Shown: piece after piece, positions 14,338 to 33,731 of the stretch
How positions within the stretch are numbered: position 1 is the stretch's first letter
Layout: each line of letters starts with the position of its first letter
NCBI GenBank assembly: GCA_019187105.1
Contig: JABAQM010000001.1
Span: forward strand, 372,001 to 436,000
DNA from: Fimbriimonadaceae bacterium
GTDB lineage: Bacteria; Armatimonadota; Fimbriimonadia; Fimbriimonadales; Fimbriimonadaceae
DNA length: 64,000 bases
Direction: 5' to 3'
Made by a program: the position numbers and the translations under genes
Notes under the pieces: generated by a model
What the model was told of the DNA's origin: nothing
The model's database searches: none
Seen by the model: only the letters and a program-made list of their open reading frames with translations

Positions 14338-14634
14338 ACATCCGTGACGAATTGCGTCCCAGCAATGCTTCGCAATGGCCTATGGGCCACGGAATTTCCG
14401 GCCGTTTTTTGGATACCATTTGGCGGTCGAATGGTCAAAAACGCCGGTCACGTGTTTCTGCCAAATTACCGCGATGAGGATCCGCACGGAACGGTCTTCT
14501 CCCTCAAGTTTTTGGATGACGTTCGGGCCAGAGATCGCCCTCAACAGCACATTGAGCAATGGCCCGAAACCGCCCACACAGCGTCAAAAAACCCGGATGC
14601 GGAAGTGATTACCTGCGGAAATGCGTTAAAACGA

Positions 14635-16240
14635 TTTTGAACCTAAGGTGTCATGTAACTTTGGTTTTTTTAGTGACAACCCCTAGCGCCTAACAATCGC
14701 GCCCAAAGTGCCGAAACGTAATCGTGGCCTTTCGAACCATTTTTCGCGCCGCGCATGACCAATCCTATGAGCGGCGCGATGACTTTTCGGGGTCGCAATT
14801 TCTGCAACCGCTGGCGTGCGCGCGACCACTAATTGCACCCGACTGGTACCGGCACGTGTACCTTGTTCCAAGGGCAGTTTCGGGCACCTCATGTCTTGTG
14901 CGCACGCCGCACACAGGATTGCACTGCCACTTGGATCCGAGGCATCCTTGACCCGATCTTTCGGGCATGCGTCGAAATTCTGCCCTCACTACCGGCGGAA
15001 GTTTTGGTTGCGATGCCACGATCTTACGACGAAAGAGCGCCACCTTATGCATCCGAAACGTGGGCGACCATCATGGCTCCGCCGCGACGACAACGCCCAA
15101 ACATTGCCTGTGCTTGGAAGCGCGATCCCGTACGTCTCGGAAAGAGATGCCAATGCTTGACGGGAATCAGTGAGCGCTACATTTCCGATGGCGGCAATGC
15201 CCCTAACCTGGCCGTTTCGTGCGCCACAATTTCCCCGGATTGGTCAAAGGAACCACGAGTGAAAACTAACGGCTGGCACACGCGCGCATGCGCGGCAATC
15301 AGGGTGCCCAAAGGTGACGGCTCTCGGCCGCATTTGGCAAAACCCATGCGCCGCTGCATTGCCGCGCGGCGTGACGCGCCACCATTCCCGCCGCTCCACA
15401 ATTGGCCAACGTCGGTGCGCAGCATTCGCAAAAACCGGCCAAAAGCGGTGAAGCAGATTTGAACCTAAAATGTCATGGAAAATGGGTATTTTTTTCATAT
15501 CAACTCCGGTGGACGAAAAATGCGCCGCCAAAACGGCACGGATTGGCACATTAGTGCCATGACTCAAGAGGCCCATGCCGGCACTCGGGCCACACTGGAA
15601 CGCAATAAGACCACCGTTAGCGGGACCCGTCGCACACCTGCCGCGCAGCGGGTTTCATCTGGAAAAAGCCAGCTCGCCAAAACTGGTTGGACACGCTTCA
15701 CACCCACCAAGCAGAGTACGCGATTGGCGTAACCAATGCGCCGCCGCATGGCCGCGCGCGTAGTGCCGCGCCACCATTCCCGCCGCTCTGCATTTCGGCA
15801 TAGTCTGCGCGCGCCAACGCGGCAAAAGTCCGCGAAACGTCGCGAAGCAGTTTTGATCCTAAATCGTCATGGAAAGTCGGTATTTGTTAGCGTCCCACTT
15901 TTGGGTTGATAAACGCCAAACCAAAGTGGACGGATTGGTCACGTTCATGCCTCGCCCAATAGCGGTCCGTGCCCAAAATCGCCATCAATCTGCCGCACCG
16001 GCGCGCCATGTGTACGTCGTTGGCGTGATCAGCCGCACTCTTGCCGCGGAGCGGGATTTATGCGGCGAAATCCGTCGCGCCAAAACTGGTTGGCACACTT
16101 CACACCCACCAAGAATGGGACATGATCGGCACCGGGAGCCGCGCCAATTCCTTGCCCAAATTGGTGCCCACCCGACACCGGCCGCGCTCGCCATTTTGTG
16201 ACGCCAAGCGCGGGTTGCACCGCGACAATGCGCGTAATAT
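14635..16240. repeat. Cluster of decayed ~390-400 bp direct repeats
   Basis: No convincing gene. The stretch is built of diverged direct repeats. A boundary motif, TTTGAACCTAAAATGTCATG at 15458-15477, recurs as variants at 14635-14655 and 15851-15870, and once outside the cluster at 25194-25219. Between boundaries, CGCCAAAACTGGTTGG followed by CTTCACACCCACCAAG occurs at 15675-15711 and 16078-16113. A GCGCCACCATTCCCGCCGCT block occurs at 15375 and 15768. Spacings are 391-403 bp. The 14635 to 15458 distance is about twice the period, implying one further eroded copy near 15050. On the minus strand the copies carry short stretches weakly reminiscent of the 3' half of the small HTH gene at 14023, but with stops. 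Confidence 0.65.
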
Positions 16241-16244
16241 CTTC

Positions 16245-17102
16245 TCACGAAGTGGACTTCGACGAAGCGATTCGACCACTCTTACGCATCCCAACTTCTG
16301 GCGGATCCCCGGCAGCGATGCGCCGCAAAAACGTCGCGACCGCCACTTCGAATCGCGGATCATCAACCCACACTTCCAGGGTTTTTTCCTCGCCGAATGC
16401 GCGGTGCATGTCCTGCCAATGCGCCGATCGCTTATGGATGCCAAGGGGCCGCCGCGGCCCTGCAATTGCGTCCTCTGGTGACATCCCGGCTTTCATCCGA
16501 ATGGTGATCCCAACCGCCGTGTATCGGCATCGGGGATCGGTTGCCCATGCGGCCAAGGTCTTGCGCTCACCAAAGGCTTCGATGAGCGGCTTACGATAAT
16601 GTTTGGGGCGTGTGCCTTGGACCAGCGCGTCTTCAAATGCCCAGCCATCGGCCAAGCGCCGCTGGAGTAGCGCTCGACTAACCATGCAACGTGAATCCCG
16701 CAGCCAGTCCGACAGTGACTTCTCTTCCCCGAATGCGGAAAAGTGGGGCGATGCAATGTCGCGCATCGACCGCGCGCGCATGGCAACTTCAATAGGAATT
16801 CCCTTCTTCACCCGTTTCAACAAGACGGAATATTCAACCTTGCATCGCGGATCTCTGGACCATCCGTTGACGGATTTCAGCTCGCCGAATGCGCCCCACA
16901 GCCGAACAGGTTTCCGTGCCCAAAAGCGTTGGCGAGACGCATCGATTGGCTGAGTAATCGCCGTTTCTGCCTGCCATCCGCAGCGAAGACGATGGACCAG
17001 TGCTGCGTAATTGACGGCGCACCGCGCATCGCGCGACCAAGCCTTGATGGACTTGGATTCGCCAAATGCTGCGATCAAATGCGGAGTAAATCGGCCGCTC
17101 AC
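16245..17102 (-). CDS. Protein of five tandem AFGE/W-RDPRC modules
   Basis: 285 residues from a GTG at 17102, made almost entirely of five repeats of about 50-60 residues. Each has the pattern AFGE-x-K-(S/T)-(L/I/V)-x-x-W-x-x-D-x-R-(C/F), then a helix ending R-(L/I/V/M) and a G-x-x-x-E-x-A/G turn. Copies start near residues 10, 68, 120, 172 and 232. The fifth copy has Phe in place of the Cys. Comparable single modules occur, as I recall, in phage and mobile-element proteins next to HNH/NUMOD-type DNA-binding segments, so a DNA-binding array is my inference. There is no catalytic motif. It sits between the decayed repeat cluster and the RHS locus and has no co-directional close neighbour. Confidence 0.6.
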   Translation of the reverse strand: MSGRFTPHLIAAFGESKSIKAWSRDARCAVNYAALVHRLRCGWQAETAITQPIDASRQRFWARKPVRLWGAFGELKSVNGWSRDPRCKVEYSVLLKRVKKGIPIEVAMRARSMRDIASPHFSAFGEEKSLSDWLRDSRCMVSRALLQRRLADGWAFEDALVQGTRPKHYRKPLIEAFGERKTLAAWATDPRCRYTAVGITIRMKAGMSPEDAIAGPRRPLGIHKRSAHWQDMHRAFGEEKTLEVWVDDPRFEVAVATFLRRIAAGDPPEVGMRKSGRIASSKSTS

Positions 17103-17350: not shown

Positions 17351-17441
17351 GCCGTGGTCGAAGTTCGCCCGAACTATCCAGCCGGTTCAGGGTCTGGAAC
17401 GCCCGCGATCCGCTCTCCGGCGAACCCACCCGGATGAAGTC
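17351..17441 (-). pseudogene. Fragment of the RHS core (shuffled remnant)
   Basis: Positions 17363-17441 match 19679-19757 inside the RHS gene over 79 bp with only a few substitutions. The preceding GCCGTGGTCGAA (17351-17362) matches 19641-19652, so 26 bp are deleted between the two blocks. Translated on the minus strand the fragment reads as RHS core (FIRVGSPESG, RAFQTLNRLDSSGE). It has no open frame of its own. The rest of the 17103-17448 gap shows nothing I recognise. Confidence 0.75.
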
Positions 17442-17448
17442 AACAGCA

Positions 17449-18117
17449 TTACTTGGGATCCGCACCGCCTCGAATGTCGTCGGACGCTGTCATGATTTCT
17501 TGAACCTGCCGGCCCTCCCCCATTACATCCTCGTCGCGGAGCCAAGCAAACCCTGGCAACAGGCAAACTTTTGTCCCTGCACCCGCGGTAGCTACCACAT
17601 TCTCGGTGGGGAGATAAAGAGCATGGCAACCAAACATGCCGTTCCATTCCAGTTCGACGCATTCGACAGCCGGCGTCGGCAAAGCCCTTACTGTTCGGGG
17701 CAGATGCAAGATGGCATCGGCGCTCTCACGCACGCGACCAAGCAAATCCATGTGATTGATGCAACCAAACGCATAGTCACCATATGGTGCTAGGGCAAAG
17801 CGGGCGTCTTCTAAGATATCCGCCGAACGTACTACCAGAAGAAAGCGGTCTGTTTCAGTGTCCTTTTTCCCAACAATCACCGAACCGATACCACCTTCCG
17901 GCAGGAATCTGGGAGCAGGGGCACCTCGAAGAAGGATTGCTTCCGACTCGCCGACTAGGCCGAGGATGGCCGTAATTCCCGCAGCCGAAGATAGGCGATG
18001 CATCACTTGATCTTCACATGCGCCATCGCTTTCAGCGGCTAAGTACGCAATGCTGGTTGTCACAAAACCAAAGCGTTCTTGTTGACATTCCGCTTTTACC
18101 CGCCGTAAGTACACCAT
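17449..18117 (-). CDS. Presumed immunity protein of the RHS toxin
   Basis: 222 residues, no recognised family. Its ATG (18117) overlaps the RHS stop codon by one base (TAATG), the classic position of an immunity gene directly after a polymorphic toxin tip. There is no signal peptide or membrane segment, so it should be cytoplasmic, as expected for protection against a toxin that acts inside the cell. Visible segments include AAGITAILGLVGESEAILLR near residues 45-65 and DRFLLVVRSADILED near 90. The role is inferred from position only. Beyond its 3' end lies an RHS core remnant, consistent with past exchange of toxin-immunity cassettes at this site. Confidence 0.6.
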   Translation of the reverse strand: MVYLRRVKAECQQERFGFVTTSIAYLAAESDGACEDQVMHRLSSAAGITAILGLVGESEAILLRGAPAPRFLPEGGIGSVIVGKKDTETDRFLLVVRSADILEDARFALAPYGDYAFGCINHMDLLGRVRESADAILHLPRTVRALPTPAVECVELEWNGMFGCHALYLPTENVVATAGAGTKVCLLPGFAWLRDEDVMGEGRQVQEIMTASDDIRGGADPK

Positions 18118-21100
18118 TAGTCAATCATTGACTCTTTAAATCCTTCGATAAAGAGTGCGAATCGCGTCTTACCATACAGCTTCTGCGCCTGTGAAGCATA
18201 CTTGTCGTACAGGTCAATGTGAGGAGTACCATGCTTTCCAACACCATAGTCGCCAAAATCGATCCCCATTCTACTATTGTTTTTATCGCCCAGCCAGAGA
18301 TAACCGTTAGCATCAAATTGCCAGTTGACTAGCTCAAACTCTGCGCCGACCATTTTCCCAACAATTTGGCCAAACTTTTTCGCCATCATGTCAAGGATCT
18401 TGTCCTTTGCCCAGTTCTCTGCTGCCTTGCAGGCTGCAGCATTGTTGGTTTCCAATAAGTCGTCTAGGAACTGGGTAAGGATCAGGTCCATGAAAAGACC
18501 GGTGCGATCAACCGCATTAGTTGCGTTATTGCCGCAATAGACGTACCAGTTCTTTCCGTCTCCGGCCGGATCCTCACTTACAAACCGCCCCGTTCCCGGC
18601 TCGTAATACCGAGCCCGCATGTAGATGAGGCCGCTTTCGTCATCCTGCCGATGGCCGAGGTTGGCGCAATATCTTTGCCCCGGATTGCCAGTCGAAGAAC
18701 CCGACCTTACCGAGCCCCACACATCGTAAAGTCGGTTATTCGATACGGAGTAGTAAGGCGTCGAAGTAGATCGCGCCAACGTCGCGACCATATTCCCGTG
18801 GCCGTCATAGAGCGGATAGCTCGCTGTTTCATCCGCCGTACCCACCTTCTGGTAGATCGCATCTTGGCCCCTAGCCCCTAACGCATACCGCGTCACAACC
18901 CGCGCCTGCCCGGTGACGGAAACATCATCCTCATAGCAGGACGAACCATCGTACATGTACCGCGTCGTCGGCATGTCGACGGATGTGATGTCGTCATAAT
19001 GCCCGCTCGCGGTGATCTCGTCGTATTGCCAGGCAATCGTCAGCCCTTCCACCTTCTTGACTCTCATCCCATCCGCCCGGTAAGCATACGTCGCCCCGGT
19101 CGAAGCCCCGACGCACGAGAGCATCCGGTTCAACAAGTCCCAGCTATACCGCTGCACACCGCTGGTCCCATAATTCCGCCACGTCCGGTTCCCCAGAATG
19201 TCGTGCTGGTAGTCGTAGCCAGGTGAAGCGCTCATGCGGTTCAAGTTGTCGTAAGCATAGCCCGAGTTCGCCCGATTCCCGGCCGCGTCATAGCTCCAGG
19301 TGTGCGTCGTGGCGCCGTCGTATTCCACCGCCGTCAAGTAGTCCTCCAGCGAGTCGTAATCGTATTCTTCGGTGCTGTAAGCGGTATCGCTCGCATTCCG
19401 ATAGGTCGCGCTCAGCCGCAGCCCCTTTGTGTTGTCGTAGGTATACACCGTCCGCCCGATGCGGCTCTCGCTATCCAGCTCCCCGCCCGAATCGAAGTTC
19501 TGCCACCAATGGGCCACATCTAGCGCCTGGCCGCGCTGGTTGTAGGTGTTCGCGACCACCGCCCGGCGCGAGGCGATCAGCTCGTCGTAGTCGCTTGTCC
19601 CGTTGGGAGACTGGGCGAAGGCCGAATAGAGCAGCCGCCCGCCGTGGTCGAACTGGTAGTGGAACTCCTCGGCGGTCCGTTCGCCCGAACTATCCAGCCG
19701 GTTCAGGGTCTGGAACGCCCGCGAGCCGCTCTCGGGCGAACCCACCCGAATGAAATCGAAGTAGCCCCACTTTGTGGTGCCGTTGTTGGTCGCGTGGCTC
19801 TTACTCGCCACATCCCCGACGACGGTGTAATCGTAGGTCGTCGTATGATTGGAAGCCGAACTCGCCAGATGCTGCTCCTGGATGCTCAGCAGCTTGCCAT
19901 AGCGGTGCGGCTCGCTGGAGTTCGTGTAGTAGGCGTAGTTCAAGATGACGTTCGAGAGCCGGTCCCAAGCCTGGGTCATCACCCCGTTCGTGATGCCGCT
20001 CGAGCCGTAGGCGTAGCTCGCGATGTTCTTGACCGGGTTCACGTTCGTATGCTGGACCAGCGTCACCTGATCGTCGGCGTTATAAGTCGTCTCGATCACC
20101 CGCCCCGCCGCATCGGTGATAGCCAGCGGCTTGCCCCAGTAGTTGTAAGCGCTGGTCTCGGTCGTGCGGTTGATCTTGCCCGATCCCGCATCCTCAACGA
20201 CCTCCGTCACCCCGCCCCAATACGGCGAAGCCAGCGACGTGTCGTAGGCGGTGGTGGTCTTCACATAAACGTAAGTGCTGCTCGTCCCCGCCGTTCCGGA
20301 GTGCAGCTTCTCGATCTGCACCGGCCGCCCCTTGTCGTCGTATTCCATCTTGGAAACCGAAGCATTGGCGTCGGTCACCGTGATCGTGTTCCGCCAGTTC
20401 GAGCCCGACGAGTTACTGTAGCTCGCGTACTTGCTGTCGTAAACTGCCTTTAGCGCCCCCGCCGCCGCGCCGCCCGTGGTTTGGGTGTTCGTGTAGTACT
20501 CCGAGAACTTGAACCGCCCGCTCGGGTCTTTCACCGCCTTCTGTTGATAGTACTTATCGGCTCCGTGATAGGCGTATTCGGTGGTCAGGGTCGGGAGGCC
20601 ATCGGCATATTGCGACCGGTTTAGCGGTGAACCCAGGTAGTTATAGTCGGTCCAGGTTTCGCCGCGAATAGCGTTGTAGTTCTCGGTGGGGAACTGCCGC
20701 TCTTCGTAGAGGCTGCCCACGATGCGCTGCGCTTGGGAGAAGCGCTCGCTATAGACGCACAGGCTGTTGGTGCGCACGAGCTTTTGCCAGATCCCTGCCT
20801 GGTAGTTGTTGATCCACCACTCCATCGGCAGATCGGCGTCGGGCAAGCACTCTGCCTGAGTTGGCGTGGAGTCGTCCATCATGCCGACGACGAAAAAGTC
20901 CTCGTGCTGCCAGTTTCCGTTCTGGCTGTATTCGGGAGAGACATACATCATCCCCTCGTTCGTGGACACCGGGTTGGTGCCGTCGAGGTACCAATCGGTG
21001 AAGGTCGTGCCGTAGGTATCGGCCCCGCTCGTAAAGTCGGCGTTCGTCGTCCCGAAAGTGGAGAAGCTCGTCTTGGTGCCGTCCGAGTGGCTGATCCGGT

Positions 21101-22319
21101 AGGCGCAAAGTGACGTAATCGGGGCGTACCACGGGCGAAGATCGTAATCTTCCCACTCGTAATCAATCGTCGTGGTCAATCCTCTCGGATCGGTGATATC
21201 GGTGATCACCGTCGCGGTCAGGCCGCCCGTTAAGCGCGTATAGGTGTCGTAGCCGTAGGTCGTTACCTTTCCCGAACTGGTTGTCGCCGATTCAAGGTGC
21301 CCGGATGTCGTGTAGTCGAAGTCGACGTACCGTCCGCCCCCGTCGATCACGCGTGAGACGCGATCAGAAGGTTGCCCATTTCCGCCCCAGACAAACTCGA
21401 TGACCTTGCCATTCGGCGCCTCGATCTCGATGAGTTTTCGCTCGGTGGTCGCGCTGTGCGTCTTGCTGAAGTTCACGGTTTCGGTGGAATACGTGAATGT
21501 TGTCTGGTTGTTGTGGCGGTCCTTGATCCAGACGACCTTGAGGACGTTCCCTTCAACGTTCTCGCCCCACTCCGTCCCCATCGTCTCGTATCGGTATTGG
21601 GTGCCCTCCGGGGTGGTAAGCGTCATGGCGCTCATCACCTGACGTACCCCGCTGCCGTCGGCGACGTAGTCGTAGGCGACATCGGTCTTGTTGTTGTCCC
21701 AATCGGGATTGGTGAGAATGCCGTCCACATCGCGCTGGATCGTCTCGACCTGTCCAGCGGCGTCGATTGCCAGCACCGCATCGACCGGCTGCGCCGCCGA
21801 TTCGCCCAGATTCGGATCGATCGCGCCAACCGGACGCTCGGCAAAGGCGACGGGAACGGTGCGCACGGGAGCCGACGACGACTTGAGGGTCGCCCCCGCC
21901 GTCGAGCGGATATCCGAACTCAGCGTCCAGCCGACCCCAAAGGGACCCTCGTCCCCGTTGTTGGCGCTATACGTCCGGCTCACATTCACGGGCACGCCGA
22001 ACGACGTTTCACAGGCAAGGTCGGTGACTGAGAACGAGAAGTTACCGGTGGCAAGGTCCACACCTTTGTAAACCACGCTCCACTTCTGTGGGGCGGCAAC
22101 GTACGGATTCTCGCCCGTCTTGCCTTTCAGGCTGATCAGCTCGTCATCGGTCAGGAGGCGCGTTTCAGGCATTTGCCACGCGGTCGCCACCACTTCGCCG
22201 ATCGACTTGGAAGGCGTTTGTGCCTTTGCCGCCGGCAGGGGCGGAATGAACCCGGATATCAGGCCAAGGCAGGCAAAAGTCGCGCCGAGGCGATGGAAGC
22301 TCGAATGAGTGGAAATCAT
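18117..22319 (-). CDS. RHS-repeat polymorphic toxin with unfamiliar C-terminal tip
   Basis: 1400-residue secreted RHS/YD-repeat protein. An N-terminal signal peptide (residues ~1-33, ending AKA-QT) is followed by a DUF6531-like start (GVDLATGNFSFSVTDL). Many YD-type repeats follow, for example YDTYTRLTGG and YDYDSLEDYLTAVEYDGATT. The RHS-associated core is at about 1210-1275 (GLIYMRARYYEPGTGRFVSE, ending NAVDRTGL). Residues 1276-1400 form a tip of 125 residues after the core that I cannot place. It starts with an amphipathic helical part and ends with GIDFGDYGVGKHGTPHIDLY and FIEGFKE. The DNA encoding the tip is visibly more AT-rich than the core, as is common for exchanged toxin tips. The ATG overlaps the stop of the upstream peptidase gene (ATGA) and the stop overlaps the presumed immunity gene, so the four genes form one operon. 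The RHS shell should encapsulate the tip; the toxin activity is unknown. Confidence 0.88.
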   Translation of the reverse strand: MISTHSSFHRLGATFACLGLISGFIPPLPAAKAQTPSKSIGEVVATAWQMPETRLLTDDELISLKGKTGENPYVAAPQKWSVVYKGVDLATGNFSFSVTDLACETSFGVPVNVSRTYSANNGDEGPFGVGWTLSSDIRSTAGATLKSSSAPVRTVPVAFAERPVGAIDPNLGESAAQPVDAVLAIDAAGQVETIQRDVDGILTNPDWDNNKTDVAYDYVADGSGVRQVMSAMTLTTPEGTQYRYETMGTEWGENVEGNVLKVVWIKDRHNNQTTFTYSTETVNFSKTHSATTERKLIEIEAPNGKVIEFVWGGNGQPSDRVSRVIDGGGRYVDFDYTTSGHLESATTSSGKVTTYGYDTYTRLTGGLTATVITDITDPRGLTTTIDYEWEDYDLRPWYAPITSLCAYRISHSDGTKTSFSTFGTTNADFTSGADTYGTTFTDWYLDGTNPVSTNEGMMYVSPEYSQNGNWQHEDFFVVGMMDDSTPTQAECLPDADLPMEWWINNYQAGIWQKLVRTNSLCVYSERFSQAQRIVGSLYEERQFPTENYNAIRGETWTDYNYLGSPLNRSQYADGLPTLTTEYAYHGADKYYQQKAVKDPSGRFKFSEYYTNTQTTGGAAAGALKAVYDSKYASYSNSSGSNWRNTITVTDANASVSKMEYDDKGRPVQIEKLHSGTAGTSSTYVYVKTTTAYDTSLASPYWGGVTEVVEDAGSGKINRTTETSAYNYWGKPLAITDAAGRVIETTYNADDQVTLVQHTNVNPVKNIASYAYGSSGITNGVMTQAWDRLSNVILNYAYYTNSSEPHRYGKLLSIQEQHLASSASNHTTTYDYTVVGDVASKSHATNNGTTKWGYFDFIRVGSPESGSRAFQTLNRLDSSGERTAEEFHYQFDHGGRLLYSAFAQSPNGTSDYDELIASRRAVVANTYNQRGQALDVAHWWQNFDSGGELDSESRIGRTVYTYDNTKGLRLSATYRNASDTAYSTEEYDYDSLEDYLTAVEYDGATTHTWSYDAAGNRANSGYAYDNLNRMSASPGYDYQHDILGNRTWRNYGTSGVQRYSWDLLNRMLSCVGASTGATYAYRADGMRVKKVEGLTIAWQYDEITASGHYDDITSVDMPTTRYMYDGSSCYEDDVSVTGQARVVTRYALGARGQDAIYQKVGTADETASYPLYDGHGNMVATLARSTSTPYYSVSNNRLYDVWGSVRSGSSTGNPGQRYCANLGHRQDDESGLIYMRARYYEPGTGRFVSEDPAGDGKNWYVYCGNNATNAVDRTGLFMDLILTQFLDDLLETNNAAACKAAENWAKDKILDMMAKKFGQIVGKMVGAEFELVNWQFDANGYLWLGDKNNSRMGIDFGDYGVGKHGTPHIDLYDKYASQAQKLYGKTRFALFIEGFKESMID

Positions 22320-23290
22320 GGCGTTTTCGAGTGAGTAATGGGGTGGGTGGTGACAACAACGGTCGAGAAAGCGATGCGGCTGAGCTTAGCCGGATCGACG
22401 GAGAAGGTCTCTTTGGTGGCGGGGTCGTACGCCCAGAGGACACGGCCGTTGCGAGATTCCAGTACGCGGAAATGCTCCCCGCTGAGCCAGATCGCCGGCA
22501 AAGGCAACGCGGCGAAGTCATCACGATTGACGCGATACGCATAGGACTGGAGACCGGCCAGCTTCAGCCCGGCTTGCATCCCCTTGACGCTGGTGCCGGA
22601 GGCATCCGTCCCGCAAGCCGTTCGCAAGACGGCTTCGTCGAGCGAATCCCTGCCGAGAACGGACAGTAACCGATTGATGCTCTGGGGGCCGCAGTCCGTT
22701 GCCGATGCCTTGCCCATTCGATTCTGGTTGGCAGGTGGCTCCCACTCGGGCTTGTTCGCCAGGCTGTCGGTGGCCTCACCCAATCGACCGCGAATTGGTC
22801 TGGCGAGCTTCGAAGTCGGGTTGTCGTTGAGCAGTTCTCGAAGCTCGCTGCGGCCCTGCTCCGTACGTCCATCGGCGAGGAGACAAACCGCTGCTTGATA
22901 ACGTGCCTGATCCTCTAGCTGCTGACTGACGTTGGTGGAAGCCTTGTCATCGGGAGCCAACTCCGCAGCCCTTAAGAACTCTGTCCGAGCCGTACTAAAG
23001 TCTTTTTGCCGTCCGGCCGCATATCCCATGATCATCTGAGCCCGGACAGCGACGATGCGCTCTGCCGACTTTCTTGACGTGCCGAGCGCCGCGACAATGT
23101 TTTCGCATCGCACAGCGGCATCTTTGTAACGTTGCGATGCCAAGTCGCGCTCTGCATGCAGCAGCGAGGCGGAATGGGAGGGTCGAGAACCTGCCGCTCG
23201 GACCATCAGGGCGACGGCAACGACGGCGATCATACCGACACAGAGCCTTAGAACAGAAGCTGAGCTGGCTTTCATAGCGTTGGGTTTCAT
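22316..23290 (-). CDS. Membrane-anchored C39-like cysteine peptidase
   Basis: 324 residues from the ATG at 23290, chosen because it overlaps the upstream stop as ATGA. One N-terminal membrane anchor spans residues ~13-34. A helical TPR-like region (~45-170, with RYKDAAVRCENIV and DFSTARTEFLRAAELAP) precedes a C39-type papain-like domain. Probable catalytic residues are Cys200 in TDCGPQSINRLL, His273 in SGEHFRVLE and Asp289 in AYDP. C39 peptidases usually cleave leader peptides of exported proteins. With an RHS gene directly downstream, a role in processing or presenting the RHS protein or the DNRLRE-like protein is plausible but inferred. The anchor places the catalytic domain outside the cytoplasm if orientation is N-in. 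Confidence 0.75.
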   Translation of the reverse strand: MKPNAMKASSASVLRLCVGMIAVVAVALMVRAAGSRPSHSASLLHAERDLASQRYKDAAVRCENIVAALGTSRKSAERIVAVRAQMIMGYAAGRQKDFSTARTEFLRAAELAPDDKASTNVSQQLEDQARYQAAVCLLADGRTEQGRSELRELLNDNPTSKLARPIRGRLGEATDSLANKPEWEPPANQNRMGKASATDCGPQSINRLLSVLGRDSLDEAVLRTACGTDASGTSVKGMQAGLKLAGLQSYAYRVNRDDFAALPLPAIWLSGEHFRVLESRNGRVLWAYDPATKETFSVDPAKLSRIAFSTVVVTTHPITHSKTP

Positions 23291-24471
23291 TGGCTCTTCA
23301 ATATCCACAGCCGCGGCCGTGTGTCGCGAAAGGTCTTCTTGGCGGTCTCATCTAGCGCCGACAAGGCCATAATCTGGCTCTCGTACTCGCGGCTAGCGAA
23401 GTAGCGCCAGTTCTTGATGCCGGTCTGCCCAGATTCGTAGTACAACACGACTGCGACGTTGGTGTATGAGTAAGGTCGATCCTCTTGATCGGCATCTTGG
23501 GTCAGATCCCAGTTCAAGTACTCATTGTTTGGCGAACTATTGGAGACTTCGAGAATGCTGAGCGGGAGCATATGATAGGGGTAGTCGCCCTCGTACTCGT
23601 ATTCCAACTCCTGCGGCACGATGTCCCATCGGTTGGCCCAGGTAAGGGAACCTTCATCGAAAGCAAGATTAGTGTCGTCGCTTCTAGGTAAGTAGGTTCC
23701 CGCATAAATGGCCTCCGAAGCCTGCGACGGCGGCGGTAGGTGAAACATGCTTAGGACAGCGAACTTGAATCCAGTGGTTTCACCACCGGCATTTGGGAAA
23801 CGCATCTGGATTCGCGCCGTTCCACTACGGTCGCCCTTATCCAGCATTCGCCCAACGAATAGCCCGCCTTTGTAACTGCTCGTCCCAAAATTCGCGTTGC
23901 GCTCGGCATCGTTCGGGTCGGGTGCCGAATTGCCAAAGGCAAAACCTTTGCGGGAATCGATGCTCGCGTCGGCTTCGGCAACAATCTTGGTAAGGGTGTA
24001 AGGGTATGTCGTCTGGGTCATGTCGGTCTCGGTCTGGCCGTTAACAATCCGTTCCCAGTAGTTCTTCACGACAAAAGAAACCGTGCCACCGGAAACCACA
24101 TTGTCGGTACCGGCAAGAACATGGACTTCGACGAGGTTCGCCCCTCCGCTGGGCGACCATAGCCGCATGACGAGATCGTTGCCCGAGATTGGGCTTGTAA
24201 GTTCCTCGTCATACCCACCGAGTGCGGTCGAACCGCCGGTGGAAATGGTTAGCGTCGAACTTGTGCAATCCCATCCCGAGCGGGTTGGAGCCGACCCCTG
24301 TACTTTGAGCACAAACGCATGCTTGCCGCTTACGGATGTCCAAGCGCCGCTGGCGTAGACATAGTGAGTTGTGCTACGCCGTTCTTCTCCGCTGACGAAG
24401 GGATCGAGCGAGGCACCCGCCACTTGACTGATGGCAAGGGACATTAGGAGGATTTTTAATCGAACTAGCAT
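23287..24471 (-). CDS. Secreted DNRLRE-like domain protein
   Basis: 394 residues with a signal peptide (residues 1-19, ending VAGA). The mature part begins with a beta-rich stretch. Residues ~165-290 read like a DNRLRE/CBM96-type jelly roll: EADASIDSR, NFGTSSYKGGLFVGRML, GTARIQMRF and NAGGETTGFKFAVLSM. In WapA- and RHS-type secreted proteins such a domain often lies N-terminal to the YD repeats. Here it is a separate protein at the head of the operon. It probably binds or scaffolds the RHS product at the cell surface (inference). A GAGGGA lies about 12 nt before the ATG. The 166 bp upstream to the frameshifted HTH gene hold the presumptive promoter; I see no clear hexamers. Confidence 0.7.
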   Translation of the reverse strand: MLVRLKILLMSLAISQVAGASLDPFVSGEERRSTTHYVYASGAWTSVSGKHAFVLKVQGSAPTRSGWDCTSSTLTISTGGSTALGGYDEELTSPISGNDLVMRLWSPSGGANLVEVHVLAGTDNVVSGGTVSFVVKNYWERIVNGQTETDMTQTTYPYTLTKIVAEADASIDSRKGFAFGNSAPDPNDAERNANFGTSSYKGGLFVGRMLDKGDRSGTARIQMRFPNAGGETTGFKFAVLSMFHLPPPSQASEAIYAGTYLPRSDDTNLAFDEGSLTWANRWDIVPQELEYEYEGDYPYHMLPLSILEVSNSSPNNEYLNWDLTQDADQEDRPYSYTNVAVVLYYESGQTGIKNWRYFASREYESQIMALSALDETAKKTFRDTRPRLWILKSQ

Positions 24472-25460: not shown

Positions 25461-26354
25461 TCATCTGATCAATAATCTGTTGAGCGCGTGCCGCACGCGG
25501 CTTGTGCGGATGCCCTTCGAGTTGATCGAAAACGCGTCTCCCACAAACTGTACGGTTCCCTGAGCATCGACGACAATCGCCTCAACTCCTTTCCCTGGCG
25601 CAAGGCGATTCCAAGTATCTTCCGCTAGGCGCAGATCGACCGTCCGAACTCTTCCCGTTGGCCCCACCGAGACGAATGCAACATCGCGGTAAACCTTGCG
25701 CAGAGCCGCTACTTCCCTTTCGGACTCGGCACTGATTCGATCAGGAAACCAAAGAACCGAAGCATGGGACGTGTAGGGAGTCCATGTCCTACTCCGGCCG
25801 TCCGGGCCGGCACCCATCAGCCTCGGAATCTTGGCGCCGAGCTTCGCACGCCAATCGCCAAACAGCACTTTGAGATCCTCGCCATAACGACTGGTAGCGG
25901 TTTGGCCGACCACACTAACCGCATCCCCGACGCTCTCATCAACCCACTCGACTTTCCCGTCGGCATCGATAAGCGCCGCCATGCGCTTCACGGCTCCGGA
26001 AGGAGCAAGCGCACCATAGAGTGAGCAAGTCGCGCCTGTGGGGTCGGACAACATGGGAACCCCTGCCCTCTCTGCCTTCGAAAACTTGAAACGCGTTTCC
26101 TGCGGATCACGATTAATGGCGATCGTCTCGATCCCCTTTAGGCGCCAGCTCTGGACATCGTCACGGATATCCCTAACTTGAGCGGTTCATCCGGGCGTGA
26201 AGTCTTTCGGCCAGAACAATATGAGCAACCGCTTGCCTCGGTAATCCTCGAGGCGTCGCACCGTGCCGACTTCGTCACGTAACTCGAACGCCGGAGCCGA
26301 TTGCCCCGGCAACAATGACGACTGCAGGAGGATCGCGAGGTACCCGAGTGTCAT
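25461..26354 (-). CDS. Predicted selenocysteine peroxiredoxin (in-frame TGA at the peroxidatic position)
   Basis: BCP/AhpC-type thiol peroxidase read through a TGA: 297 residues with selenocysteine at position 56 (codon 26187-26189). Before the stop the frame gives PGQSAPAFELRDEVGTVRRL and LLILFWPKDFTPG. After it comes T-A-Q-VRDIRDDVQSW, a GIETIAINRD strand and LSDPTGATCSLYGAL. This is exactly the peroxiredoxin fold with the catalytic residue of the FTPG-C-T motif replaced by TGA. No other stop occurs. A compact hairpin follows the TGA (separate entry). The ATG at 26354 overlaps the CARDB gene stop (ATGA); a short hydrophobic N terminus suggests export. Residues ~150-297 form an extra domain I do not recognise. 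Without read-through this would be two fragments (26187-26354 and about 25461-26054). A Cys-to-stop pseudogene is the alternative. Confidence 0.75.
26153..26172 (-). promoter_or_regulatory. Candidate bacterial SECIS hairpin
   Basis: On the minus strand GGATATC-CGTGAC-GATGTCC forms a 7-bp stem (one G-U pair) with a six-base loop. The stem begins 14 nt after the in-frame TGA and the loop lies about 22-27 nt downstream of it. The loop has G as its second base followed by U. Position, stem length and loop G/U fit the loose bacterial SECIS model recognised by SelB. The hairpin lies within the coding sequence, as bacterial SECIS elements do. Confidence 0.65.
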
Positions 26355-29300
26355 GGCGTGATCGCGAATCTTCTGACGTTTGACCGGCGATCTTCCAAGC
26401 CATTTTTGGCCGGGTTCAGCACGTAAAGGCTCGCTTCTCCGACCGATTCGATCAACGTCGATGAGACGTCGACTTCCAGTTCGCGCGAGGACTTCCACAC
26501 GGTGGGGCGCGCTTCGCCGTTCCAATAGACCACCGCATCAGATTCGAAGTTGACGCCCTTCACCCTTAGCGTGAAACTTGAACTGCCGGCCCTGACGCTG
26601 GTTGGCTCGAAGCCGATGAGCTTGGCGAGGATGGGGTCGGGCCCGGTCTTCTCAGTAGCGGCTTCTGCATCTGGATTGGGTGGTGCATCCTCGACGTTGC
26701 CTGCGTTGTCCCGTGCCACGGAATAGAAGCGATACGTGGCGTTGGGCTTGCCATTGAATCGCGCCGATGTCAACGTCGTGTTGTTGAGCCACGAGCGGTA
26801 GTGCCCACCGTTTTCGGAGACGAAAATGTCGAAGTGAGCGAGTCCGCTTCCGCCAGCGGGATCGCTCCCCGTCCAGGTTAGCGAAATCACATTGCGATCG
26901 ACAATTGGATTGGCGTCAATCTGGCTGACGGGCAAGTCGCTGTCCAGCGTATTCGTCACCGCATTCGTGGTCAAAGGTGCGTCGCCGTCGAAGACGATGG
27001 TAGCCGCGTTCGAAATGATGGTTCCTGTCGCCACGTTGTCGTAGGCGTCAACAACGTAGCTCAGCTCCGCTTGCCCGATGCCCGTACCGTCCTCTGGCGG
27101 GAGTAGGCCAAAGATGGCGACGGGCGGTTCGCCGGTCTGCGGATCGATCGCTTCGAACACCGCTCTCAGTTTTCGATTCACGGGATCGATGGCGATGGCA
27201 ACGTCTGCCAACAGGTCGAATTCGCGGATCTTGAGCGGTACGCGCTTAAAGTACGAACTTCCGCCCGACGTGAGATCGATCATCGAATCGCCGACCCTCA
27301 GGCGCTGGAGCCGGAGAGTCCGCAGGTCCAAGGATGGGTCGAGGTCGTCGGCAATTTCAATCCGCACCGCCCAACCTGTCGCAGTCGCCAGATTTTCGCA
27401 CCGGATGGTGTAGGGTAGCGATTTTGGAGTTACGAACTTCGCGTCGCTGAAGCCGGTTGGTCCCAGCTTGTCGTTGGGGTCTAATCGCAAGGGGAGCCTG
27501 TATGTAGTCTCGGTCTGGATAAACACTAGCCCCGCGAAGGCACTCCAGTAAACTCCGTCCCCAAAGAGATCGCCTAAATCGAACGAGAAGAGTTCACCAT
27601 CGAACGGATCTGCGAACGGCTCGAAGGCCAAGGCACCTCTGGCACGATACACGGCCTCTTCGAAACTGCAGTTAGGTGCACAAGGTGGCTTATCGCCATA
27701 CTTAACGCACATGTTGAACTCCCAAGCGCAAATAGCTTTTGCTGCCGCGAGCCAGGCCCAGCAAGCCGGAGGTCCGAAACCTTTGGTACCTAAGACACAA
27801 AAACCGAACTCAAGCCAAGCCCGCAGGTTGCAGGCAAGGAAACGGACACCACACTCGTCCTTGTGGTTTGATACTCGGGTTAGTGGGATTTGACCATTGT
27901 CTCCGCGACGGTTTTGCGGCTGAAGCAAACCAAGGGCTTGTAGCTGGCTTCTTCCGGTTTCCCAAAACACTTCAGGAGAGCTCAGCACTCCTTGGAGTTC
28001 AGGCGGCACCTCAATGTCCGAGTGAAGCAGCCCTAGGCGCAGGCTCTCGAATCGAATGCGATAGCGAGCTTCCGCATCAATCGCCGTGTGGGCGACATCC
28101 TGCACCGTTACGCGAAGCGGGAACGTGCGAATGGTGGATGGATCGAAGAAGAAAGTAGCGGTAGCGACGTCACCCGGTGCCAAGTCTCGAAGCACGAAGT
28201 AGTCAAGCGTCTGCCCATCAAGGTTCTGAACAGTAGGAGACTTGCGTCTCCAATCTGCCTCTGGAAAATCGCCCTTTCGTGGCAATGTATCTTCGGGCCG
28301 GTCGTTATAGATAATCAGACCTTCCTGATTTGCTCGGCAAAGAATCGTGACGTACGGCAGATCAAAGTTGCTCGTATTCGTAACCGCAATCGGCCTTACC
28401 ACAGAGTTTCCTCGCCAGGGATCGACCGTTGGCAACATCGCCAGCTGACCCTCACCCGATTTAGGTTCCTCGATCGTAATTCCGTCATCCAATACTGCCA
28501 GCTGACCGTCCGCATCGACCACCACGTCGTACTTCCCTCGCACGGCCTCGTCGAGGAAGAACCGGGCCCGTAACTCACCATTCGGCTTCAACTCCTTCCA
28601 CGTCGCACGGTACGTGCCCCCAGGACCAATCAGAGAAATCGCACTAACCGTCCAGAGCCGCCCACCGGATAGTGTGATCGTGACTTGCCCGCTGTCGCTG
28701 ATCGCCTTCGGTCGCACCGCTTCCACCGAGAGTGGAAGCACCTCGGCCAGGACGACCGCGGGTTCGTCGACCGGGGCAACCGGTATGCCGAGTAGGGTGA
28801 ACACTATCCCCGCCACCGTACGCGGAACGATTAGGCTCTGATCGGCCAACCACAGTTGACTGGTGCGGAAGTCATAGTTCGAGCGCCGAACGATCTCATT
28901 GGATCGAACAAACATCTCCGTGGCCGCAGTCGTTCCCGTGTTGGTCACATCGACGGAGAATCTGACCGTTTCATCGGCAGAAGTTGCAGTCTTGAAGAAC
29001 TTGTCCTTGCCTTGCCTCAGGGTCGTGGTATAGGGAACCCCGAGTGGCAACTGGATGAAGTCGACCGCCATTCTATTCGAGCTGGCGATGTCGTTGTTGG
29101 TGCGGTCGTCTTCACGCACTTGGTTACGGGCATTGGCGCGGACGATGACGTAGTACTGCCCGGGGAGGGCAGCGGGAAGATCAACTTCCAGGTTGCCCGT
29201 GTAGCTTTGACCGGAGGGCACCGGCCCCAGCTTGGTCACCCGACCGACGAACTCGTCCAATGGATCCCACGTTTGGTCGCTTGAGAGGTACACCGAGTCA

Positions 29301-32300
29301 ACCCATTCTCCCCGTGCCTCATTCGGCCCATCGTTCAGCACCGTGAACGACAGCGAGACGGGTTCGCCAGGATTGCCACTTGCCGGAATGGTAACCGAAG
29401 TCGGGATCAGATCGAGCGGCGGTGGGAGTTGTAACTGAATCTCATGGGCAGCAGAGTCGTTGTCAAGTTCGTCGGTCTCGGTGACGTATCCCGTGAGGTC
29501 GGCATAACCAATCAGGTGCCACTTTCCGGTGAGGCCTTGGGGCAGGTATGCCGAGCCCGCGTGGGTCCGAGATTGGCCAGGGAGTAGCACCTCAGAGTTC
29601 TCACCATGCAACAAGCGATAGTCAGTCGGGTCGACATTACCGTCGCGGGAGAGAAGGAGAACGTCATTCCACCTCAGCTCGACGGTCGGCTCCGTCCCAA
29701 CATTCGTCACCGTGAAACTAACGGCTATCCTTTCCCCGCTATACGCCGTGGCTGGAGCGGTGAGCCCCGTGATCCGGAGATTCGCTTCGGCGATGCGGAC
29801 TTCGATGGGGCGAGCAAGTGTGTTATTGCCTTCTCCTAGCCCTTCGAACAGGGTGTTCGGATGATCACCCGAAACGATTAAGAAGTAGGGTCCGGGAGCA
29901 ATCCCCTTCAGATTGAATTGAGCTTGTGACTGGTAACTTGCATTGACCGCAAGAGGACCGCGGCGATAGGAGCGCCCCAACTCTCGGTCTAGTGCATCCA
30001 AGGTCGTGTCGGTAGACAGGTAAAGAGCGTCACTCCATGACTCGGCGATCACGTCGACCGCTCCTCGATTCTCGCCGGTCCACGCTACGTCCACGATTTG
30101 CCCAAGATTAACGGTCCCCGGTGCGGTGATCGACGTGATCTGCAGGTCTGGGCGGTTGGCTTCCACCACGATTGAAGGACCAGCGGTGGAATTGTTCAGC
30201 TCCAAGCCGCACTCGTCGACCTGGCGTCCACGATTCGCGGTCACGATGATGTAATACGAGCCGGCTGAAAGCTGGGGAACTACGACAGACTCGTCTCGCC
30301 GGTACGTTGCCCCAGGCTGCAGTTCACCGGACCGCGGAACGTCCTGGAGAAGCAAATCCAGGCTGTCCAGCACCGAGTCGCGGCTGAGATGAATGCTGTC
30401 GACCCAAGCTGCTGTGCGCGTCTTGCCGTCCCCGGAGTTCCGTACCAGCCATTCGATCCGCATCGGCTGGCCCGCGCTCACGGTCAACGGATGAGACACA
30501 CTCGCCACCGTCAGATCGGGCACATTGGGGTTGACGTTCAAGCCGTGAGCAGCACTGTTATTATCCTCGAACGTGGCTTCGTAAACCGCCCCTTCGGTAT
30601 CGGTTTTGAAGAACAGATGGTAGGTGCCGCTTTTGCACCTCGGAATCATGATCGATGTGGAAACCTGATAATTAGCTTCCCTAGTGAGGTCCGCGGCACG
30701 TGAAACAGCCGCAAGGGCGATGTCCGAAGCGTCGAGTGTTGCGTCCTCGCTGAAGTAGACCTTGTCCATCCACGGAGCCTTGGCCAGATCGGGCCCGTTG
30801 TTGGTCACTTTCCACTTGATGGTAACGGTGTCACCCGAGTCGGCCACGGTCGGTGTCGAAGGGTCGACAGCTATCTGCAGATCCGCCACGGCCGCAAAGA
30901 TTTCGATGGGCATCGGATCACTGATCACGTTGTTGACTTCGCCAGCTACTTCGTTGACCTGATTGTTCGTGTCGCAAACGAGCAGCAGGTAGTACGTACC
31001 GCCAGGCGTGTTGTACGGAATAAAGACATCGTGTTCCTCGATGTAGCTGGCGTCCTTCAGCAGACCGCCTGTACGCGGAACGGTGAGCAAGGTCCGGTCG
31101 TTGCCGCTCAGGATCTCATCGCTTGACAGTACGATTCGGTCCGACCAATTCTGCTCATGGGGAGGCGTATCAGCGGTGCCCGTGTTGGTCACCATCCACT
31201 CGACCGGAATGGTCTGTCCGCCGGCGCCGAAGGACGGCCCCTGCAGGTAGTCGGGGTTGAGGTCGGGCAATGGCGGGGCAATAATCTCGATCGCCTTAAG
31301 CGTGCGGTTATCGCTTTCATTCGTCTCGTTGACGTTGCCGCTCGCATCAGGATGCACGACCAAGTGCCAGTTCCCCAACGTGTTGATCGGGATCTTCAGA
31401 TTGGCCGTCGTCCAGTAGGATTGTCCCGGCTCGAGGTGGGCAGGATTGGCGACGCTAACCCGAACGCGGTCACCATCCGCTTCTCGCCAAATGGCGAACG
31501 AATCCGCCCAACCCGAAGAGTTCGTTGGCCCGACATCGATGTTCTTGATCAGCGCCCGAACTTGGATCGTCGTGCCAAAAATCGCCTGAGCCGGCGCCTC
31601 AATCTGCTGCACGACGAGGTTGGGGAATGGCTCGTAAAGAACGCGAATCGGCGCAACCGCGACGTTATTCCCTTCCTTCGTGCCTTCCTCCTGCTGATCG
31701 TAAAAGTCGGTGGCAAAAATCAGATAGTAGTCACCCTCCTGCTGAACCGCGTTGCGCGGGACAAGGACATCTTGTATTCGAAGCACGAGTTCGCCTGGCG
31801 CGAGATCTGCGGTGTATTGGAACTGACCAAGCAGCCGATCATTTCCGGAAAGCGTGGCGTCCTGCGAAAGATAGATGTGATCGTAGAAACCGCCGGTCGC
31901 AGGACCTTCTCCGCTGTTCTCATCGAACCAGGCGATCGTAAAGGTCTGGTCGGTGGCCATTTCGCTCGGAGCGCTGAACGAGGGAATCGTTAGGTCAGGC
32001 AATGGTCGGTAAACCGAAACTTCTCGTCCTGCAACATCTATTAGCCAATCCGCAGCCTTGACCTGAACCGTAACCTCACGTCCCGCCGAGTCGAAGATCG
32101 ATTCGGCATCCTTAACGCGCACCGAGACTTCGCGTCCTGCGGCGTCGATGATGTTCGAGGCATCAGCCACTTTCACGGAAACTTCGCGACCAGCGGTGTC
32201 TTGCACCAGCGCCGTATCACTCACCCGAACCGAAACTTCACGACCGGCCGTGTCCTGATCCATCGTCTGAGGATTTCGCCGCTCTACCACTCGGCTGGTT

Positions 32301-32437: not shown

Positions 32438-32462
32438 AAGAAGGTGTTCGCCAGACGTGACC

Positions 32463-33731
32463 TTATAGCTTCTGGGCGATGGGTTGAACGACACCCCGAT
32501 CCAGGTACCAAAAGTCCAGCTTCCATGTGCTCAGGATCTGGTTACCGCCAACCAACGTCGCTTGCAGCGGTGAATTGTATGTCTGCGTTTTCGACATCTG
32601 GCGGACTCCCACGCGCCACGATCCATCAACAGGGACGTTCCGGCACTCTATGATCGTAGTCACATAACCCTTCGTGAGCGTAACGTCCACATCATTGAGG
32701 GCGCCCTTTGGGTCGGTCGCTACGTTTTGGCCATCAATGGAGAGGATGCGACATGTGGGGGCGTCACTTGCGGGCCAGATGACGGGGTCTGATTCGAGGA
32801 CTGCAGACGATGGAATCGGGTACGTCGTGCCATTAAAGGATGCCGTCAGAAATTCAAGTCGAATCCGACCGTCGCCGCCTCGCCCCCCGCCGTTAATGCC
32901 TCCACCGGGTGGCTTCGAACGAGCTTCCACCATAGCAGAGACAGGGCCTTGTAAGGACTGACAAATGAGACGGATTCCTCCGCCGCTGCCATCTCCGCCG
33001 TAAACATTGTTTTGGTTCACGCCTCCGTGAGCTCCGTTGGCTTGGACCGTACCGTTCAACTGGACCGTGAGCCTGCTCGCTATTAGCAGGGCGCCACCGC
33101 CGCCCCCGCCTGCCAGCCCTAATGTGAGACTTGGGTCCCCAGCTCCCCCAGAGCCGCCAATAAGCGGAACGACTTGAGAATTCCCATAGGTCGTACGAAA
33201 TTGATAACCGTTATTCTGCCCTTGGGTGCCATAACTTCCCGAGTTGTAAGAACCGCTTCCTCCTCCGTAAGCGGCACCGGGTCCGAAGCCGCCAGTCTCG
33301 GTGCCTAATCCACTCTTGCCATAGCCGCCGCGGAATCCGCCAGGACCAGGAATCCCCACATCGTTGGGCACGACCGCCTTTGCGCTCGCATCGATCGTTC
33401 CGTCGATCACAACGTTGCCCTGGACCAGAAACACGACTGGCGGGTTCTTCGGATGGTTCTTAAATGTAAGCTTGGCGCCAGGCGAGATATTGATCGCCGA
33501 CCAGTGGTACACGACGGCCCATTTCACGGGGTCGTAGACACCGTTGCCCGTCGCACAGAGCTGGTTCCACGTACCGGTTGGACACTGGGAAAGGTCGAGC
33601 TCGGTATCCGCCGTTACGTTAAGCTGGCCGGAAGAGCCATTGGACGGGACGTTAATCTGGGCTGACGCAATGGCGACAATCGCAATCCACATACCCAGGG
33701 CGAACGAGCGAATAATGGAACGTCTGTTCAT
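32463..33731 (-). CDS. Secreted glycine-rich protein
   Basis: 422 residues from the ATG at 33731 (an ATG-less in-frame extension to 33746 adds five residues). Signal peptide ~1-25 (ending ASAQ). Residues ~75-120 read as a beta-helix-like strand series (GAKLTFKNHPKNPPVVFLVQ, GNVVIDGTIDAS). A long Gly-rich region with GPGGFRGGYGKSGLG and GGSGGAGDPSL follows, then LAGGGGGGALLIAS and a C-terminal beta domain with three Cys. Such proteins are common surface or matrix proteins in this part of the bacterial tree; the function is unknown. It is the first gene of an operon with the CARDB protein (25-nt gap) and the peroxiredoxin. Confidence 0.7.
   Translation of the reverse strand: MNRRSIIRSFALGMWIAIVAIASAQINVPSNGSSGQLNVTADTELDLSQCPTGTWNQLCATGNGVYDPVKWAVVYHWSAINISPGAKLTFKNHPKNPPVVFLVQGNVVIDGTIDASAKAVVPNDVGIPGPGGFRGGYGKSGLGTETGGFGPGAAYGGGSGSYNSGSYGTQGQNNGYQFRTTYGNSQVVPLIGGSGGAGDPSLTLGLAGGGGGGALLIASRLTVQLNGTVQANGAHGGVNQNNVYGGDGSGGGIRLICQSLQGPVSAMVEARSKPPGGGINGGGRGGDGRIRLEFLTASFNGTTYPIPSSAVLESDPVIWPASDAPTCRILSIDGQNVATDPKGALNDVDVTLTKGYVTTIIECRNVPVDGSWRVGVRQMSKTQTYNSPLQATLVGGNQILSTWKLDFWYLDRGVVQPIAQKL

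Follow-up and report, generated by a model that had tools for sequence, protein, structure and literature searches.

In Streptococcus suis, the SrtB / SecF-like / WapA-CT1 system couples a Sec-exported, non-T6SS (type VI secretion system) RHS toxin to an upstream gene for a cysteine enzyme, and includes an RHS shell, a cleaved tip and an immunity gene (PMC12704120). The locus analysed here, which lies in a 64,000-nucleotide stretch of Fimbriimonadaceae DNA (the window), has predicted counterparts of all of these. It differs in several respects: S. suis is Gram-positive and its enzyme is a sortase, whereas the window encodes a C39 peptidase; and WapA carries DNRLRE and LysM in cis, has two RHS domains and exceeds 300 kDa, unlike the window RHS protein, while the accessible portion of that description reports no C39-type leader such as the latter possesses (PMC12704120). 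How Sec-exported RHS toxins mature and are released without a T6SS is an open question, to which the recent S. suis work contributes a cognate sortase for one group of such toxins (PMC12704120).

The window peptidase shares the C39 fold and the Cys-His-Asp triad with PCAT1 and ComA, and the leader of the window RHS protein shares with double-glycine leaders the hydrophobic residues at -12, -7 and -4 and the Gly at -2 (PMC7018657, PMC8794836). Unlike PCAT1 and ComA, the peptidase stands alone with TPR repeats, has no ABC transporter and probably lies outside the inner membrane; its cargo would be a 1400-residue Sec-type protein, its oxyanion Gln is missing, and Lys or Arg takes the -1 position in split systems, where peptidase and RHS protein are separate. 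Tox-PL-C39 domains of polymorphic toxins likewise tie a C39-like papain fold to RHS proteins, but they are listed as toxin domains (PMC3482391), whereas the position of the window-type C39, at the N-terminus or in the upstream gene, suggests a processing enzyme. T6SS Rhs effectors (RhsA, RhsP, Tse5) resemble the window protein in their RHS shell and in the conserved Asp pair for tip release, and orphan tip/immunity modules downstream recall the orphan rhs-CT modules of Enterobacteriaceae (PMC3967940). Unlike those effectors, the window RHS protein has no PAAR domain and its genome no TssC, a Sec signal and a C39 leader being found instead. No description of a C39- or double-glycine-linked RHS pairing was found in the open-access literature.

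It seems likely that the locus is an antibacterial RHS polymorphic-toxin operon, relying on Sec export, a trans-acting C39 leader peptidase, aspartyl release of the tip and cognate immunity.

Organization and recurrence of the operon

Four ORFs, all on the minus strand and spanning 24471-17449, encode in this order a predicted secreted partner (DNR), a TPR-C39 peptidase, the RHS protein and an immunity candidate (Table 1). As initially annotated, they form an operon with ATGA, ATGA and TAATG junctions, located at 23290-23287 (counting the C39 gene from its ATG; a GTG at 23308 is an alternative start upstream), 22319-22316 and about 18117, respectively. This layout is not a product of chance, because both the order and the tight spacing are repeated in same-family genomes, where the gap between genes 1 and 2 is mostly -4 to 0. 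As for the four-gene order looked for in related genomes, the first three genes are found in the same order within the family, while the tip-immunity pair of the window was seen once elsewhere. Promoter and terminator scans fell below shuffle expectation and are hence uninformative.

Beyond the family, C39-RHS pairs are recurrent across Armatimonadota, adjacency of the two genes extending to other families. In some families (order- and phylum-level relatives), TPR-C39 is even fused N-terminally to RHS, an ELSxxELxxAWGG-type linker joining the peptidase to the shell. All 15 genomes with a strong match to the RHS N-terminus spanning the leader also encode a C39 peptidase. The initial annotation held that RHS homologues without the partner genes would count against a dedicated system; such genes do exist in the same genomes, but they belong to a separate RHS group without the leader, and for that reason they support the pairing with C39.

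Table 1. Features of the RHS locus, in window coordinates
Feature	Coordinates	Strand	Basis
Gene 1, predicted secreted partner DNR, 394 aa	23287..24471	-	ORF, 13-member family alignment
Gene 2, TPR-C39 cysteine peptidase with membrane anchor, 324 aa	22316..23290	-	Pfam, PDB profile matches, alignment
Cys200 catalytic codon (CGP motif)	22691..22693	-	invariant in core alignment
His273 catalytic codon	22472..22474	-	invariant in core alignment
Asp289 catalytic codon	22424..22426	-	invariant in core alignment
Gene 3, RHS protein, 1400 aa	18117..22319	-	signal peptide, C39-type leader, DUF6531/RHS shell, Asp-pair core, variable tip
C39-type leader motif LTDDELISLKGK, RHS aa 56-67	22119..22154	-	conserved in C39-paired RHS
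RHS core end, conserved Asp pair (RARYYEPGTGRFVSEDP...AVDRTG), before tip	18498..18614	-	10-relative alignment, TIGR03696
Variable tip, predicted toxin, 126 aa after VDRTG	18120..18497	-	motif D-F-x-D-x(5,8)-G-x-P-H
Gene 4, putative immunity protein of 222 aa, cytoplasmic by prediction and lacking TM segments	17449..18117	-	pairing with tip
Scar of RHS core, 79 nt	17363..17441	-	95% identical to 19679-19757

The peptidase and the leader of the RHS protein

The description of gene 2 as a C39-like peptidase is confirmed by its match to Peptidase_C39 (PF03412; 3.7e-13, 49.9 bits against a cutoff of 22) and by the invariant catalytic triad. It also matches TPR models, and a PDB profile search returned the peptidase domains of PCAT/ComA; the protein consists of TPR and C39 only, with no ABC transporter fused to it or present at the RHS locus. 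Cys200, His273 and Asp289 are retained in 14/14 members of the core alignment, which are 19-27% identical to the window peptidase, and nearly all more distant C39 relatives keep the triad. Ordinary peptidase-containing ABC transporters among the C39 matches (L147-L149) were left out, and a plasmid search with C39 returned NHLP transporters only. At the position six residues ahead of the Cys, where C39 enzymes canonically have the oxyanion-hole Gln, no Gln occurs in the window peptidase or in the 14-member alignment.

Gene 3 is, as first described, a 1400-residue RHS protein with a signal peptide: DUF6531 (PF20148, 2.5e-9), RHS_repeat (PF05593) and the TIGR03696 Rhs core (2.3e-18) all match above their cutoffs, and a Sec signal peptide was recognized by eye at the N-terminus. 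The shells of relatives are 32-42% identical to that of the window, and the Pfam scan detected DUF6531 and RHS_repeat only, with no PAAR domain at the N-terminus. Between signal peptide and shell, C39-paired RHS proteins carry the pattern L[ST]xxE[LM]xxLxG[KR], whose spacing is that of the double-glycine leaders of C39 substrates (LSxxELxxIxGG). It is present in 30/32 of them (shuffles: mean 0.82, maximum 4), a count that does not represent 32 independent events because the paired RHS proteins are related by descent, and in 0/12 RHS proteins not paired with C39. C39 substrates are expected to have hydrophobic residues at -12, -7 and -4 and a Gly at -2 (PMC7018657), and the window leader, LTDDELISLKGK, conforms to this rule, with a predicted cleavage site after GK. 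Its -1 residue is Lys, as in most split relatives (Lys/Arg), where canonical substrates have Gly, Ala or Ser; true GG sites are confined to the fused C39-RHS forms.

Given the Lys/Arg at -1 and the absent oxyanion Gln, cleavage at the leader is not guaranteed, and the C39 domain could instead bind the leader without cutting it, serving in docking or as a chaperone, in membrane retention or in delivery to an outer-membrane exporter, a role that the TPR repeats, suggestive of protein binding, would also suit. The C39-like domain of HlyB, which binds but does not cut, has lost its Cys. The window peptidase, unlike HlyB, has kept that residue; Cys, His and Asp are invariant despite the great divergence of the 14 aligned proteins, and the fused forms retain their GG site right beside the peptidase. 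We therefore regard a purely binding C39 as unlikely, though it is the strongest of the alternatives, and favour a peptidase that cuts. Because the proposed enzyme and substrate are specified down to single residues (Cys200, LKGK site), the question is directly testable in vitro.

The variable tip and its neighbour

By its repeats and core, hypervariable tip and downstream immunity candidate, the window RHS protein can be assigned from sequence to the polymorphic toxin type, the hallmarks of which are a hypervariable tip, a small gene linked to the tip and orphan modules (PMC3482391, PMC3967940). The tip (predicted to form three helices, four strands and two helices) and the gene 4 product had been noted as unrecognizable, and this still holds: the latter has no significant family match, and no known toxin could be assigned to the tip by Pfam, NCBIfam, PDB Foldseek, VIA-align, plasmid tblastn or a GTDB contig scan. 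The best Pfam match of the tip, Ntox25, stands alone and below cutoff (E=0.063), and a structure model from two sequences (pLDDT 70) gave a best Z of 3.8 and no Foldseek E below 0.1.

The presumption that gene 4 encodes an immunity protein is strengthened by the two behaving as a pair, homologues of tip (52% identity) and immunity protein (26%) being adjacent in L057/L064 with the same 1-base overlap, the one recurrence of this pair elsewhere. Could the RHS protein rather be a structural or adhesion protein of the cell surface, its C-terminus no toxin and the 222-residue protein no immunity protein? The tip has no recognized fold, its role as a toxin is predicted only, and several relatives end in short hydrophobic segments. 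A structural protein would nevertheless sit poorly with a conserved core followed by tips (116-144 residues in relatives) that are mostly unrelated, with 2 weak pairs among 18, with a small gene that travels with the tip, with membrane-type tips whose partners are small membrane proteins, and with the arrays of orphan tip/immunity modules downstream of several relatives. We consider such a role very improbable and retain the toxin-immunity reading. The arrays also offer toxin and immunity families of Armatimonadota that await characterization.

The secreted partner and the proposed export route

Gene 1 encodes a protein with a hydrophobic N-terminal signal and a conserved C-terminal domain (approximately residues 163-394; SID(S/T)R..G...DPN...NFG...YKGGLFVG...DRSGTARIQ...W.NRW...WRYFAS.E) that has no sequence match in Pfam, NCBIfam or PDB. 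The label 'DNRLRE-like' in the initial annotation could not be confirmed: with a threshold of E<=1, none of the 13 family members matches a DNRLRE model of Pfam or NCBIfam, and the genes found in these genomes with NF033679 are others, not DNR. An hhalign comparison of the DNR family with nine genuine DNRLRE domains of the same genomes was weak (P=0.12), albeit collinear end to end, and the single-sequence structure model was poor (pLDDT 35); neither these nor the PDB profile search confirmed the label. Outside the family of the window and its close kin, other large secreted proteins occupy the partner slot, while the C39-RHS combination is constant.

That constancy, together with direct TPR-C39-RHS fusions, a leader motif limited to C39-paired RHS proteins, a locus devoid of ABC transporters and a DNR alignment in which no matching motif was noticed by eye, makes it least probable of all that C39 processes another protein, for instance a small GG peptide or the secreted partner, with RHS a mere neighbour, even if C39 enzymes usually process small peptides exported by ABC transporters and ordinary PCAT-type C39 transporters occur in these genomes (L147-L149).

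With RHS as the substrate of C39, the precursor, judging from its N-terminal signal, would cross the inner membrane via Sec. At the outer face of that membrane, the TPR-C39 peptidase tethered there would recognise the leader just upstream of the shell and cut after it, freeing the shell from the signal/anchor segment, as motif, triad, pairing and fusion suggest. The Asp pair at the core end, as established in known Rhs relatives, would then release the tip inside the shell, and the partner may retain the shell at the surface or present it to target cells. The tip, with a probable target in the cytosol, would kill non-kin, and the pairing of the two suggests that the 222-residue protein guards kin. 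That this export and processing route lies apart from T6SS, as had been proposed, is upheld by the C39-type leader on paired RHS proteins, by the C39-RHS fusions and by the absence of the T6SS sheath protein TssC/VipB (PF05943) from the 99.6% complete genome (an E. coli control was positive).

Whether this amounts to a phylum-wide, previously undescribed mode of RHS-toxin export, with Sec, C39 leader removal on a ~150 kDa protein (in trans at G-[KR], in cis at GG) and an exchangeable displaying partner, we judge to be evenly balanced. If so, the C39 leader code of small bacteriocins and pheromones would also serve giant shell toxins, and the split and fused versions would constitute a natural experiment in the co-evolution of the -1 position with the peptidase.

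The downstream orphan tip/immunity modules may serve tip exchange. Directly after the immunity gene of the window lies the 79-nt scar of the RHS core, seen at the codon level as a match of 28 codons with 93% identity, which, as far as its sequence tells, is the remnant of a displaced RHS module.

A peptidase paired with an RHS protein

Reading of the open reading frames confirmed all four genes on the minus strand, with the overlaps at their junctions reported by the initial annotation. Domain scans matched DUF6531, RHS repeats and the Rhs-associated core in gene 3 and TPR and Peptidase_C39 in gene 2, bearing out the proposed C39-like peptidase beside an RHS protein; neither gene 1 nor gene 4 had a significant match in these scans. 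The host genome (3.3 Mb, near-complete at 99.55%) carries a single copy of the C39 gene and lacks TssC.

The C39 protein is present in 21 of 101 relatives' genomes, and a profile search found C39-like matches in 96 of 291 Armatimonadota genomes, including some ordinary peptidase-containing ABC transporters. The four-gene order expected in related genomes holds in part: same-family genomes keep gene 1, C39 and RHS in this order, genes 1 and 2 usually overlapping by a few bases, whereas elsewhere (f12, f26 and further families) other large secreted proteins are encoded in the position ahead of C39. C39 immediately precedes an RHS gene in many families, and in several the two form a single polypeptide, anchor-TPR-C39-linker-RHS (loci L063, L145, L146, L150). 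Such a fusion is strong evidence that C39 and RHS share a common task.

Cys200, His273 and Asp289 are invariant in 14 proteins only 19-27% identical to the window's peptidase, and this triad is retained in nearly all more distant C39 relatives. Among proteins of known structure, the PCAT1 and ComA peptidase domains match best in sequence; the oxyanion Gln at -6 is absent. Judged by eye, the C39 proteins start with one membrane anchor, or in some relatives with a lipoprotein signal, which makes a periplasm-facing enzyme most likely.

The leader of C39-paired RHS proteins

One conserved element, (S)R.L[ST]..E[LM]..L.G[KR], is common to all RHS proteins of these operons; it lies between the signal peptide region, itself little conserved, and the shell. 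The substrates recognised by PCAT C39 peptidases have hydrophobic residues at -4, -7, -12 and -15 ahead of Gly-Gly, Gly-Ala or Gly-Ser (PMC7018657); of these, the RHS motif shares the hydrophobic -12, -7 and -4, and it also has an acidic residue at -8 and Gly at -2. It is kept in families with otherwise very different RHS proteins (L134-L144, L159, L160). The C39-RHS linkers of the fused proteins, LSQQELASAWGG-SHLG, ISAQEMKLVWGG-SHLG, LSMADLENAWGG-CCG or LSPEELRNAWGG-CCG, are by their sequence a textbook double-glycine leader.

Of 32 C39-paired RHS proteins, 30 have the register-derived motif ahead of the shell (22 in strict form; shuffle control, mean 0.82, maximum 4). These proteins share ancestry and are not 32 independent trials; the fused double-glycine forms and the contrast with unpaired RHS proteins are the stronger arguments. 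The two exceptions carry visibly degenerate versions. Homologous RHS proteins without the partners, which the initial annotation held would count against its proposal, do occur: 12 with DUF6531 have no C39 neighbour (two of them from the same genome). All 12 lack the motif, which speaks for the pairing and not against it. Of the 101 relatives, 15 give a strong match to the RHS N-terminus that spans the leader, and a C39 gene is present in every one of these genomes.

Tips, immunity genes and orphan modules

Relatives' shells are 32-42% identical to that of the window, with tips unrelated save for two weak pairs. These tips (L042-L055, L126-L132) span a narrow 116-144 aa, as if bounded by shell volume. 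Both Asp residues at the end of the Rhs core are kept in 10 of 10 aligned relatives, so these proteins have probably retained the aspartyl self-cleavage of known Rhs proteins.

Among 200 other genomes, only two carry a homologue of the window tip, at 52% and 36% identity. Directly after the closer homologue, with the same one-base overlap, comes a gene for a 223-aa protein homologous to that of gene 4 (26% identity), which marks tip and gene 4 as a presumptive toxin-immunity pair. A tip homologue identified by name lies in Chthonomonas sp. UBA2017, an Armatimonadota MAG of the same family as the window. Both were at first unrecognised and have stayed so, gene 4 having no family match and the predicted tip model (pLDDT 70) no convincing structural match. 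Conserved tip residues (D90, F91, D93, G100, P102 and H103, numbered on a 136-residue construct) are compatible with a hydrolytic active site. Since many relatives' tips contain predicted membrane segments and are followed by genes for small membrane proteins, pore-forming and cytosol-acting tips probably both occur.

In relatives (e.g. L049, L052, L053), tip-bearing RHS end-fragments form arrays, each fragment with a small gene behind it, and resemble orphan rhs modules (PMC3967940). A module of this kind probably left, as a scar, the 79-nt RHS core piece that lies 8 nt after the window's immunity gene. Elsewhere in this genome, L038 is a stranded orphan array; L039 holds further RHS genes.

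Proposed route and the partner slot

The operon, triad, leader, fusions, tip variation, tip-immunity pairing and lack of TssC can be read from the sequences themselves. In the route we propose, the RHS protein would be exported by Sec, C39 would cleave the leader, the shell would then be released and the tip would act as a toxin, with gene 1 presumably also contributing. Pairing, leader, fusions and the absence of TssC favour the dedicated export and processing route distinct from type VI secretion that was first suggested; its Sec export and cleavage steps stay conditional. The system would work like Sec-exported WapA toxins, among which WapA-CT1 of S. suis is encoded next to its cognate sortase and a SecF-like protein (PMC12704120), and would borrow the peptidase-leader pair of bacteriocin-type systems. 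Zhang et al. (PMC3482391) list C39-like domains among the toxin domains of polymorphic toxins; none of the papers found describes a C39-like domain that processes in trans and has a matching leader.

The family of gene 1 is conserved (13-member alignment), and its C-terminal layout recalls that of DNRLRE domains; none of the tests reached significance, however, and the label DNRLRE-like was not upheld. That other secreted proteins can replace gene 1 suggests a role in display or adhesion and not a chemical one; the model is weakest here. At L135-L138 and L142 the gene before C39 encodes a secreted protein of 650-1900 aa in place of the 394-aa partner, some with repeated Ig-like motifs.

Features of the window and of the rest of its genome
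Feature	Position	Strand	Description
Leader, window RHS	aa 54-67		RLLTDDELISLKGK; conserved in C39-paired RHS
L038	G000:C1:2423011-2426687		second set of RHS end-fragments, 60-74% identical to window RHS core, other tips; no full-length RHS or C39 adjoining
L039	G000:C1:3103930-3116164	both	at least 4 other RHS genes/fragments of a different subgroup, without C39
Direct repeats	14606-16130		degenerate; 67-nt, 102-nt and 58-nt families, spacing ~390-820 nt; no convincing genes
285-aa protein	16245-17102	-	downstream of operon; ~5 repeats of AFGE.K....W..DPRC.V....L..R...G; no family match
Peroxiredoxin-like (AhpC/TSA) gene	25461-26525	-	apparently split over two ORFs; possible frameshift
2047-aa secreted protein	26351-32494	-	just upstream of operon, same strand; eight CARDB repeats, DUF11, choice-of-anchor Z type repeat
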